This document shows, one piece after another, positions 57,910 through 63,493 of a stretch of DNA of 64,000 bases. This DNA is from Pigmentiphaga aceris (lineage in GTDB: Bacteria; Pseudomonadota; Gammaproteobacteria; Burkholderiales; Burkholderiaceae_B). Position numbers and translations under genes: made by a program. The stretch's first letter is position 1, and every line of letters starts with the position of its first letter. The notes below the pieces were generated by a model. The model was given only the letters and a program-made list of their open reading frames with translations. It had not been told where the DNA came from and ran no database searches. The stretch lies in the NCBI RefSeq assembly GCF_008119665.1, contig NZ_CP043046.1:1488001-1552000 (forward strand). The letters run 5' to 3'.

Positions 57910-60030
57910 GTGATCGAGTCTACAACCTCTTCGGGAAATAGTATGAAGTTGATCAAGTACCGGGTTACAAATTTCCGATCTGTGAGGGATAGTGGCTATA
58001 TCGATGCTGGTGATGTCGCCGCATTAATCGGTGTTAACGAATCGGGGAAGACAAATTTGCTGCTTCCGCTTTGGAAACTTAATCCTGCTCGTGAAGGCGA
58101 GATTCAGCCGACATCAGACTATCCGAAGACCATGTTTGCCGATGTGCGAGACGCACCAGAAAAATATAAATTTATCAGCGCCGATTTTGACGTCGCCCAG
58201 TTCAAAGAGAATCTAATAACCATTACGAACCTCGACGGTGCACAACTAGAAGTTGTTCGTGTTGATAGGTACTTCGATGGAAGCCACAAAATCTCGTTTC
58301 CCCAGTATGCTCCCAAGACGACAGTCGCTGCATCGGAGATCAAAGGCGAATTGGCGAATTTAGTCTCGGCTATTCAGCGAACCGACGCGCTCAAGAGCGA
58401 AGATCATCTTAAGTCAACGATCGTTGAGAACGTTCGTGCTTTGGCAGAGTTCACTGATCAGTACTGGACGGCTCAGGATCTAGATACTGCCATCGAGTCC
58501 TTAGGAAAGTTACTGCCAGACCAGCCAGCCAAGACGTCAACGATTGTTCCTCGTCTTCAGCAGACGATCGACGTGATGGGCTTATGGCTGTCCAACATCA
58601 AGTCGCCTACACCGGAAAATATTGAGGGCGTTAGGGACCTTGTTCTGAGCGCGATCCCTAAATTTGTCTACTATTCCAACTATGGAAATCTGGATTCGGA
58701 GATTTATCTGCCGCATGTGGTCGATAATTTAAAAAGAGGGGACCTTGGCGCAAAGGAAGCGTCTAAGGCGCGGACCCTCCGCGTGCTCTTCAGTTTTGTT
58801 CGTCTCCAACCCAAAGAGATCCTTGAACTTGGTCGCGATTTCAAAGATCTAAATAACCAGAATCGCCAGCCCACCGCAGAAGAAATTGCTCAAATAGCTG
58901 AACGCAAGCGAGAACGCTCAATCTTGCTACAGTCTGCAGGCACGACTCTAACCAAGGAGTTTAAGTCTTGGTGGAAGCAAGGCGACTATCGTTTTCGATT
59001 CGAAGCCGACGGCGATCACTTCCGCATTTGGGTTTCGGATGACCGACGCCCAGAAGAAGTAGAGCTTGAGAATCGCAGTACGGGGCTGCAGTGGTTCCTA
59101 AGTTTCTACCTCGTATTTTTGGTCGAAAGCCAGGGTGATCACGAGGGCGCAATTCTTCTGCTCGATGAGCCAGGACTATCTCTTCATCCACTCGCTCAAC
59201 GCGATCTTTCAGCCTTTTTCGATGGACTGACGAGGACTAATCAGATCATCTACACGACGCACTCGCCTTTCCTCGTCGACCCAGATCGGTTGGATCGAGT
59301 GCGAAAAGTCTATGTTGCTGCGGATGGCTCCACCGAGGCATCACCAAACTTGCGTCAGTCGGGCGTTGACCCGGCACAGGCCGGCGCAGCATATGCCGTG
59401 TACTCAGCACTCAACCTGAACGTCGCTGAAAGCCTTTTGTTAGGTTGCCTCCCGATCGTTGTCGAAGGTGCCTCCGATCAACATTATCTGACGATGATCA
59501 AGGCTCTTCTTATTGGTTCCGGGAAGATCAAGCCTCGCCGCGAGCTTGTGTTTCCCCCCGCAGGCGGAACTAAGACGTTGAGAATTACCGCGTCTATCTT
59601 GACCGGCCGGGACGAGAGTCTTCCAGTCGTTCTGTTAGACGGTGACCAGATGGGTCTTAGAATGGCGACTGAGTTAAAAAGCAGTCTTTATAACGGTGAG
59701 GAAAAGAAGGTTCTGACAACAGAAGAGTTCACCGATTTCAACGGATCGGAGCTAGAGGATCTGATACCACATGAGCGTTTTGTCGAGGCGGTGGACCGAC
59801 ATTTCCGTGCATCGGAACAGCAGTTCTTGGAAGTCGCTTCGAAAGAGAAACCAATCGTGCCGCAGGTTGAAGCCTGGGCTAAGAGTGAAAGTATTGAACT
59901 TACGGCTGGGTGGAAGGTTGAAGTAGCTAAGCGGGTGAAAGTTGTCCTGCTAACCAAGGGAATTGGTGAAATCGACGATGGTCTGGTTGAGCTATGGGTC
60001 CAGCTCTTTAGCCGATTTGAACCCTCTTAA
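57910..60030 (+). CDS. OLD-family ATP-dependent nuclease (ATPase plus TOPRIM)
   Basis: This 706-aa protein has an ABC-type ATPase split around a middle region: Walker A GVNESGKT (41-48), a signature-like NRSTGLQWFL, Walker B LLLDEPGLSLHP (Asp419, Glu420) and the H-loop YTTHSPFLV. The C-terminal TOPRIM nuclease domain has the acidic Glu519 in VVEGASDQ and Asp577/Asp579 in LLDGDQ. This is the overcoming-lysogenisation-defect layout; relatives include phage P2 Old and GajA of Gabija. Start GTG 57910 has GGAGA upstream; Met12 is an alternative. GC is clearly lower than the core. No UvrD-type helicase partner is beside it. Confidence 0.92.
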   Translation: MIESTTSSGNSMKLIKYRVTNFRSVRDSGYIDAGDVAALIGVNESGKTNLLLPLWKLNPAREGEIQPTSDYPKTMFADVRDAPEKYKFISADFDVAQFKENLITITNLDGAQLEVVRVDRYFDGSHKISFPQYAPKTTVAASEIKGELANLVSAIQRTDALKSEDHLKSTIVENVRALAEFTDQYWTAQDLDTAIESLGKLLPDQPAKTSTIVPRLQQTIDVMGLWLSNIKSPTPENIEGVRDLVLSAIPKFVYYSNYGNLDSEIYLPHVVDNLKRGDLGAKEASKARTLRVLFSFVRLQPKEILELGRDFKDLNNQNRQPTAEEIAQIAERKRERSILLQSAGTTLTKEFKSWWKQGDYRFRFEADGDHFRIWVSDDRRPEEVELENRSTGLQWFLSFYLVFLVESQGDHEGAILLLDEPGLSLHPLAQRDLSAFFDGLTRTNQIIYTTHSPFLVDPDRLDRVRKVYVAADGSTEASPNLRQSGVDPAQAGAAYAVYSALNLNVAESLLLGCLPIVVEGASDQHYLTMIKALLIGSGKIKPRRELVFPPAGGTKTLRITASILTGRDESLPVVLLDGDQMGLRMATELKSSLYNGEEKKVLTTEEFTDFNGSELEDLIPHERFVEAVDRHFRASEQQFLEVASKEKPIVPQVEAWAKSESIELTAGWKVEVAKRVKVVLLTKGIGEIDDGLVELWVQLFSRFEPS

Positions 60031-60947: not shown

Positions 60948-61484
60948 CTAGTAGAATTTATAGCCATCTCTAAAATTAATTCCATTAATTGCTTGCTGGT
61001 GTTCCATTCCATTTCCATCTAAAGCTGTGATGATGATTGTCATAGCATCCGTTCCGCGAGGAGTAGTTACTGTGATAGAGGTGTGACGTCCGCGAGATAT
61101 TTTAGGGAAATTAAATTCTTTTGAAAAAACATCTGATTGCAGATTTACGTTATAGCAATCTCCACCTCGATTGTGAATCTGAAGTCTGTGTTCTGGATCT
61201 TGTCCAGATATCAAGGTGCGACCGGATGGCTTAATGAAAAAAATTGGTTTTGCAAGTTTTGTTGGGATGCTATTTTCTTTCACGATAATTGAGCCCACAG
61301 CGATGTCGCCGGAGCCTTGGATATTCACGGCATTTCTAGTAGCGATCTGATTGGTAGTGGGAGGGTCCTTTTCTTTAGTCTTGTTGCGTAAAAAATTAAA
61401 AATGGCGCTTATTGCAACAACTCCTGCGCCGCTAAAAAACCATTCCTTGTTTATGCGTATAAAATCGAGCATCGCTTGAATCAT
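60948..61484 (-). CDS. Small membrane-anchored protein of unknown function (178 aa)
   Basis: One hydrophobic span (about residues 14-30, after INKEWFFSG) anchors the N-terminus; a charged Lys-rich segment follows (NKTKEKD), so the rest is probably cytoplasmic. The segment VNIQGSGDIAVGSIIV looks like short repeated turns, and the C-terminal half (about 90-178) is a beta-rich domain. The NKEWFFSGAGVVAIS pattern resembles N-terminal anchors seen in some bacterial defence-associated proteins, but I cannot name a family. It has its own promoter and lies between the two decayed transposases. Confidence 0.7.
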   Translation of the reverse strand: MIQAMLDFIRINKEWFFSGAGVVAISAIFNFLRNKTKEKDPPTTNQIATRNAVNIQGSGDIAVGSIIVKENSIPTKLAKPIFFIKPSGRTLISGQDPEHRLQIHNRGGDCYNVNLQSDVFSKEFNFPKISRGRHTSITVTTPRGTDAMTIIITALDGNGMEHQQAINGINFRDGYKFY

Positions 61485-62185: not shown

Positions 62186-63466
62186 CTATCGAGTTAGTTG
62201 AATTAGATCCCAAGACCGAAGGTGTGCAACGTCCTTTAAACGCAGCAATCCTTCGCGTTTTTCCAAGAGAAACTGCTCCTGCCGAGGTGGCAGGCAAAGA
62301 ACGGCTTGAAACTCCTCTGCCGCGATTGTGTTGAGAAGATTCTGGTAATTAGGTTCGTCAAAATTGAACGAAATGCCATCAACCAGAAATAAAGTTAGTC
62401 GCTGTTTGGCGACTTCCCGTGCCTTAGCAATGAAGAGATCAAGAATAACCTTGTCGGTACTACTCTTCGACAGTGATGAAAGCGGAAGCCATGAATTTCC
62501 GTCGGAAAATTGGAGTTCAAAATGGGGCTTGCCGTTGATCTTGAATCTCAGCTGAACATCAGTGCCGTGTTCATTGTCTTCATAGCCTTGAGCTATACGA
62601 TATTTACCAGGCAATAACTTCCCAACTGCCAGACTGAGAAGTGCGTGTACGGTACTGTGGTCTATATTTAGCAATCTCATCAAAAATTCGACATCGTCTT
62701 CATCTGTTCGTTGCTCGGCGTCGTTCGAACTGCAAAGTATCACCTCAATATCACCCGGCGGGAGGAGGCAGGGTGTCGATCCTTCCCGTCGTCTAAAGTG
62801 TCCAGCATCGATGTCAAGTTGAACGACCTTGTCTAATACATCGACCGTCGTGTATAAAACTTTGCCCGACCACGTGGGTAAATTTGATGCTGCGCGCGGT
62901 CCCTGGCTTTGAGAGAGCATCCGACGAGCATTATGTGAGTTTGTGATCGAGGCCGCGAGCTCAAGGAGTACGGACTTCCCGCTGTTTGAGGGGCCGTGTA
63001 GAAGATTGAAGCGCGATAGCTTTATCTGTAGCTTTGCTGATACCGCGAATGGCAAGAGCGTGAGTTCGATGACATCGACCCAGCCTCGTGGAGACGGAAC
63101 CTGATCAACCTGCTTTCTGGCGCGTGCTTCAACCAGTTTCTTCCAATTAAACAGCTTCTCCGCCGCGAACTCTTTTCCTCCTTTCTTGTCGATCAGGTCG
63201 CCATGGACGGCGCAGCACCAGAGACCGTTCTCTGCACTCCGGATGAACGCTTCGTTTTTGCCACCACGACCTCTCGGCCCATCCTCTGATGCACTATATA
63301 TGTGCGCCGCTTTTCCCATATTTATCGCGCTAGAGTCCACTTCTGCGGGTGCAGCGGTGGAATTATTGCATCTAGGGAGCGAACATTTTCCGTTTGCGCG
63401 CTTGAATAGATCGAGGGGCACGCCGGACAGGAAATCCCATCTTTCAGGCTTCGTGTTGATACTCAT
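62186..63466 (-). CDS. HNH-type zinc domain fused to a compact ABC-like ATPase
   Basis: 426 aa. Residues 20-95 form an HNH-like module: Cys28 and Cys33, AHI (54-56) in AHIYSASEDGPRG, and ENGLWCCAVHGDLID (79-93) with Cys84/Cys85 and His88. The ATPase follows: Walker A GPSNSGKS (158-165), a signature-like LSSLSKSSTDKV (about 330-340) and a Walker B-type LTLFLVDG (357-364) that lacks the usual catalytic Glu after Asp363. No coiled coil separates the ATPase halves, unlike SMC/RecN proteins. Start 63466 was chosen because GGAGA lies 4 bases upstream; the frame also allows 63493. Likely a DNA-targeting defence-type protein; family unknown to me. Confidence 0.82.
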   Translation of the reverse strand: MSINTKPERWDFLSGVPLDLFKRANGKCSLPRCNNSTAAPAEVDSSAINMGKAAHIYSASEDGPRGRGGKNEAFIRSAENGLWCCAVHGDLIDKKGGKEFAAEKLFNWKKLVEARARKQVDQVPSPRGWVDVIELTLLPFAVSAKLQIKLSRFNLLHGPSNSGKSVLLELAASITNSHNARRMLSQSQGPRAASNLPTWSGKVLYTTVDVLDKVVQLDIDAGHFRRREGSTPCLLPPGDIEVILCSSNDAEQRTDEDDVEFLMRLLNIDHSTVHALLSLAVGKLLPGKYRIAQGYEDNEHGTDVQLRFKINGKPHFELQFSDGNSWLPLSSLSKSSTDKVILDLFIAKAREVAKQRLTLFLVDGISFNFDEPNYQNLLNTIAAEEFQAVLCLPPRQEQFLLEKREGLLRLKDVAHLRSWDLIQLTR

Positions 63467-63493
63467 ACTTTCTCCATTAATCCTGGCAGCCAT

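Follow-up and report, generated by a model that had tools for sequence, protein, structure and literature searches.

A Cap5-type HNH domain fused in one chain to an SMC/RecF-type ATPase head in Pigmentiphaga aceris, a candidate phage-defence nuclease

The HNH-ATPase gene and its product

The 64,000-nucleotide stretch of Pigmentiphaga aceris DNA analysed here (the window; contig NZ_CP043046.1, positions 1,488,001 to 1,552,000) carries on its minus strand, at 62186..63466, an intact open reading frame (ORF) of 426 residues plus stop codon, without internal stops. By sequence and by structural model its product, which we call the HNH-ATPase, has an HNH domain and an ATP-binding cassette (ABC) ATPase head in one chain. 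The reading that we prefer, with a confidence a little short of even, is that of a stand-alone phage-defence nuclease, in which a Cap5-type HNH would be gated by an SMC/RecF head binding nucleotide as a switch and not as fuel; its gating, trigger, substrate and role in defence are what we infer.

The relatives align from the ATG at 63466, which has a likely ribosome-binding site (GGAG, 63472..63475; this and all further features of the gene lie on the minus strand) five bases ahead of it, and a longer in-frame start at the ATG of 63493 was discarded for that reason. The gene is found in one copy in the 6.17-Mb P. aceris genome. It is not a chance reading frame, because the protein search returned 61 homologues besides its own entry (62 listed proteins with the query; best E 1e-200). 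Three of the listed homologues are 70% identical to the query, one is 69% identical and the remainder 36–49%; one relative (P0027) comes from an archaeal metagenome-assembled genome (MAG). A relative in the soil bacterium Caballeronia glathei (L003) has 46% identity. A genome scan with the single protein yielded no relative, and the use of an alignment (A1) as query then yielded 33 loci. Conservation is given below for alignment A2, whose 52 rows (36 close and 16 distant) represent 32 of the 62 listed proteins, query included, and 20 of the 33 loci.

The Cap5-type HNH domain, matched by sequence and fold, spans residues ~9–121 (63104..63442). Residues 126–426 (62189..63091) correspond, by model and fold matches, to an ABC ATPase head of the SMC/RecF/Rad50 type. 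No coiled coil separates Walker A from the signature, a region in which the model (mean predicted local distance difference test score 90.5) has no helix longer than 11 residues. The compact fusion described in a first-pass annotation made from the sequence is thus borne out. That annotation had also matched the protein to no named system, a statement that holds for the full length, over which scans of Pfam, NCBIfam and PADLOC returned no family, but not for the HNH half, which matches the described Cap5 family.

ATPase site and the proposed nucleotide switch

Walker A (G158–S165, with Lys164; 62972..62995) and an ABC signature LSKSS (residues 332–336; 62459..62473) are both present. The remaining residues of a hydrolysing ABC site are replaced: Walker B (LFLVD-G, residues 359–364; 62375..62392) has Asp363-Gly364 in place of Asp-Glu and so lacks the catalytic Glu, and the H-loop place (Gln387 to Pro393; 62288..62308) has Pro393 instead of His. 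Across the 52 rows, Asp-Glu is found in six (1 of the 36 close rows, 5 of the 16 distant ones), Glu at position 364 in eight and His at position 393 in three, while Gln387 is invariant. The Walker A Lys is kept in 47 rows, all five losses falling within the close rows, and Ser335 of the signature in 40. Degenerate hydrolysis residues combined with a mostly conserved Walker A Lys favour nucleotide binding over turnover. The Asp-Gly pair of Walker B, already pointed out in the first-pass annotation, belongs to a relaxation of the hydrolysis site seen throughout the family, and this loss supports, at the level of sequence, the accompanying suggestion that ATP may act as a switch rather than be consumed.

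In the uninfected cell, two heads closed on bound ATP would hold the paired HNH domains in an arrangement that does not cut. The trigger might be a shortage of nucleotide, or contact of the head with a phage product or with a DNA end. Infection would then open or rearrange the heads, bringing the HNH pair into register, and the pair would cut DNA and end either the infection or the cell. This gating is proposed by analogy and combines the HNH pairing of Cap5 with the nucleotide inhibition of GajA; it would be gating in the manner of GajA applied to a different nuclease.

The opposite polarity appears doubtful. ATP would here close two heads, unite their HNH domains and start cutting, and a ligand would admit ATP or allow contact between the heads of the kind seen in SMC/Rad50 engagement. 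SMC/RecF/Rad50 heads do dimerise upon ATP, the top Foldseek match of the head (5h68) is an engaged-dimer entry, and Walker A and signature are intact; Septu also requires its Walker motifs, according to the paper cited below. Since cellular ATP is always high and the head is not expected to hydrolyse it, however, a protein switched on by binding would tend to constant activity, and for this reason we prefer binding as the off state. Disappearance of the P-loop Lys from 5 of the 36 close relatives also speaks against activation by ATP.

HNH metal site

Residue equivalences to PsCap5 were assigned by visual counting along the alignment with solved chains. His55 (63302..63304), the predicted catalytic base and counterpart of PsCap5 His56, and Asn80 (63227..63229), the middle residue of the H-N-H and counterpart of PsCap5 Asn82, are conserved in all 52 rows. 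The same is true of Arg65 and Asp93 and of the two halves of a predicted zinc knuckle, Cys28 and Cys33 (63368..63385) and Cys85 to His88 (63203..63214). A PDB entry among the matches bears the title of a His56Ala mutant without Mg. The last His of the H-N-H, a metal ligand in HNH nucleases, is replaced: Gly89 (63200..63202) occupies the place of PsCap5 His91, and the position is Ala in 28 rows, Gly in 19, Ser in four and His in one. The fold and the first two residues of the canonical triad are therefore present and its third residue is not. As read from the alignment, the zinc knuckle is whole and the H55/N80 pair is kept, with the third metal ligand lost across the family, so that the first impression of a complete metal site has to be corrected. 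His88, initially proposed as a residue to mutate, aligns with PsCap5 Cys90 (and Cys85 with PsCap5 Cys87) and is for this reason predicted to be a zinc ligand; His55 is the predicted catalytic His and the cleaner target for a dead allele. Position 88 alternates between His and Cys among wider HNH relatives, as expected of a zinc ligand.

The last His is present in four of the five printed solved relatives, 8ysq having Gly. A wider HNH set of 73 distinct rows was obtained from 76 loci (two duplicate loci were dropped and L081 gave no row), and H55, R65 and N80 are conserved in all 73. Trp83 is found without His89 in 44 rows, His89 without Trp83 in 23, both in three and neither in three, the rows being kin by descent and not independent events. 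Trp83 and the missing last His likely mark a separate HNH class, judging from these sequences.

The exchange of a metal-binding His for Gly could also mean that the HNH does not cut and is a nucleic-acid-binding zinc module, the protein being a RecF-type sensor or a repair or regulatory factor. The absence of the last His from 51 of 52 rows and the resemblance of the head to RecF are in favour of this explanation, which we consider unlikely. The NCBIfam RecF score is 12.6 against a cut-off of 172, which places the head outside that family, and the patchy distribution described below is unlike that of a repair gene. Moreover, the invariance of H55, N80, R65 and D93 (the first three of which, H55, N80 and R65, are invariant in the wider set too) would be unexpected for a dead site and therefore argues against one, activity itself being a prediction.

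Less probable again is an RNA cutter, of tRNA for example, that would halt growth like the HNH and ABC ATPase of Septu and of retron Eco7 PtuAB. The remodelled metal site may imply a different substrate, and the Septu HNH-ABC pair cleaves tRNA-Tyr, as stated in PMC13096335. The HNH is of the Cap5 type, though, which degrades double-stranded DNA according to PMC8568899 and PMC12804361, and PtuB models gave no match to the HNH-ATPase at E up to 10.

Several other proteins carry a related HNH. An Escherichia coli plasmid (L059:3992-4780) encodes a 262-residue protein whose Trp-class HNH is joined to a C-terminal part that no Pfam family matches. Phage P2-EC46 (L060:488-1594) encodes, in the Z region between inverted repeats, a “putative lysogenic conversion protein” (ORF2) that has a Trp-class HNH and a different C-terminal part. 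Both were set aside as relatives of the fusion, as the HNH part is present and Pfam identifies no ABC head. At L031:7998-9077 a Trp-class HNH is accompanied by a weak HATPase_c (GHKL) region (E 5.7e-4, below cut-off), possibly another ATP-binding partner. The PADLOC model of Shedu SduA matches the HNH region in 20 of the 24 members of alignment A4 (best E 3.8e-16), and the HNH module may therefore occur in part of Shedu as well. A second, weak HNH match is found in the P. aceris genome itself (G000:C1:2441599-2441862, minus strand; E 2e-9) in a frame of 266 residues.

Genomic neighbourhood and distribution

Neighbours were compared at 27 loci (26 of the 33 plus the window; 434 called ORFs, E 1e-5). 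No ORF family except the fusion is common to more than two of them, although crude ORF calling and some short contigs could have hidden a partner that has diverged strongly. The HNH-ATPase hence looks like a one-gene module, in agreement with the earlier remark that it has no obvious partner. Domain scans covered 139 of 147 listed neighbour ORFs, three ORFs above 1,100 residues having been left out beforehand, and the top 25 families were listed. They include phage integrase (four ORFs), N6/N4 methylase (three) and TIR (two), and with one ORF each a type I restriction enzyme, HerA, PDC-S06, DzbA and others. Among eight hand-picked neighbours are an integrase, HerA, a PrrC-like AAA_13 protein and SIR2, besides a TIR match below cut-off. 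No cGAS/DncV-like nucleotidyltransferase (CD-NTase) gene was noticed among the scanned neighbours, within the top 25 families listed from the bulk scans. A selfish, homing-like nuclease of a mobile element, which the integrases near four scanned neighbours might suggest, is very improbable, as there is no fixed site, the neighbours differ in all 27 loci and homing does not involve an ABC head. One locus (L042:11163-19234) has a repeated gene array, in which two adjoining similar ORFs (1354 and 1331 residues) and a third fragment lie near VWA and MoxR-like genes; both large ORFs begin MERYELVEGSASKFWEV once the extra start of the first one is passed.

In the window, the GC content is 40–54% across 57.0–64.0 kb as compared with 58–65% on both sides. 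This is in keeping with the defence-like island of the first-pass annotation, and an OLD/AriA-like ATPase gene lies in the same stretch (57910-60030, plus strand; 706 residues), with matches to Pfam AAA_15 (E 1.5e-19), PADLOC AriA (1.7e-20) and Old (1e-19) and a weak one to Toprim_2. The gene at 60948-61484 (minus strand) codes for a 178-residue protein with an N-terminal membrane-like stretch and a weak match to PADLOC PDC-M43A (E 7.9e-6). It was rejected as a partner of the HNH-ATPase, being 702 bases away and not seen in the other loci. No clean insertion site could be defined among 11 genomes of the genus: the downstream flanking gene is found only in P. aceris, and the upstream one occurs in 11 of 11 but at 67–72% identity in the others.

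Full-length relatives are found in eight bacterial phyla: Pseudomonadota, Actinomycetota, Myxococcota, Acidobacteriota, Binatota, Verrucomicrobiota, Chloroflexota and Bacteroidota, the last represented by a long-branched row (L022). The P-loop pattern used on the relatives misses four known heads (L006, L007, L009 and L023). The full fusion is rare: at the cut-offs used it was seen in P. aceris alone among 369 genomes of the class, 399 of the order and 200 of the family, other matches being HNH only, with four candidates scored per genome in the class and order searches and eight in the family search, so that misses are possible. The HNH module by itself occurs in 29 of 398 genomes of the phylum. 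Of the 100 plasmid records that the query matches, 34 belong to Salmonella and 22 to Escherichia. An IMG/VR contig (L093) with a full-length gene was not retained as a viral relative, that gene being identical in sequence to L004 from Nitrospirillum. In the HNH tree the sequences of a Verrucomicrobiota MAG (L011) and of a Burkholderiaceae MAG (L013) fall together with support 100/90, which suggests transfer. A single origin of the fusion was not accepted; the best tree needs one change, but its support is 45/83, it is recovered in 46% of bootstrap trees and it is based on 127 columns.

Weight of the evidence and significance

Several points weigh against a nucleotide-held defence nuclease. Nuclease activity and phage protection are predictions from sequence, and with the last HNH ligand missing cutting may be weakened, changed or lost. 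The six Asp-Glu rows may hydrolyse ATP, and the signature Ser335 is kept in 40 of 52. Given the Lys losses among close relatives, bound ATP cannot be strictly required in every member, an objection tempered by GajA, in which mutation of the matching Lys left inhibition unrelieved. The main counter-example is Septu, in which defence is lost when Walker A or B is mutated (PMC13096335), pointing to turnover in a similar pair. The counts of defence genes among the neighbours are raw tallies without a control set, and searches of phage and plasmid records returned no full-length relative at 80% cover.

A bolder version of the preferred reading, which we rate as possible and rather unlikely, would be a new one-gene immune system spread over the eight phyla, its HNH nuclease held by nucleotide. 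An SMC/RecF head would there replace the second-messenger sensor of Cap5, and a separate tryptophan-class site would cut with His and Asn only, the third ligand having been traded for a small residue facing the new Trp83. If true, the Cap5 HNH would be a plug-in cutter whose control can be swapped from the SAVED second-messenger sensor to a nucleotide-binding SMC/RecF head, and 426 residues would make a self-contained defence that needs neither a cyclase nor a partner. The protein would also offer a testable case of an HNH class whose metal site has been rebuilt, and would allow a direct test of whether ATP serves ABC-type immune proteins as a switch and not as fuel.

Comparison with known systems

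In the literature searched, no publication was met that describes a Cap5-type HNH and an SMC/RecF head in one chain, and an earlier description is possible. Septu and retron I-A PtuAB also associate an HNH nuclease with an ABC ATPase, and PtuA heads are among the Foldseek matches of the head (9o4a, rank 13; 8eea, rank 37); those systems have two genes where the HNH-ATPase is one chain, and their HNH is of another type. Lamassu and SMC proteins have a long coiled coil between the head halves, which is lacking here; LmuA of Lamassu can bear an HNH effector, according to PMC10586767. HNH genes linked with OLD-ABC genes are known as dyads (PMC12839542), found in bacteriophage exclusion (BREX) surroundings. 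Compared by description only, they share the HNH-ABC link and are described as paired genes. PDC-M68A, a PADLOC candidate with a 253-position model, matches the HNH part alone (residues 20–121, E 1.1e-16). The best sequence match of the HNH region to a solved chain is PDB 9om4, a 435-residue “HNH endonuclease” (E 5.2e-19), although the match is limited to residues 6–112 and the last HNH His is kept there.

Gabija GajA resembles the HNH-ATPase in being a nuclease fused to an ABC domain. It needs GajB and consists of a Toprim nuclease and an OLD-type ABC, whereas the nuclease part is here an N-terminal HNH, with no partner and no Toprim domain in the Pfam scan. Nucleotide is bound by GajA, not hydrolysed, and is inhibitory, as described in PMC8136825. 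Cap5 (HNH-SAVED) of the cyclic oligonucleotide-based anti-phage signalling system (CBASS) starts with an HNH whose sequence and fold are of the same type, followed like the HNH of this protein by a C-terminal sensor that could bring two HNH domains into order. It differs in that the HNH-ATPase has an SMC/RecF head for SAVED (no SAVED in the Pfam scan at E up to 10, residues 126–426 being the head), Gly for the last HNH His and no cyclase noticed among the scanned neighbours. The HNH domains of Cap5 are paired side by side and switched by ligand at the C-terminal SAVED (PMC8568899, PMC12804361). This SAVED domain, at which ligand binding reorders the HNH pair, would be the counterpart of the head in its proposed role.
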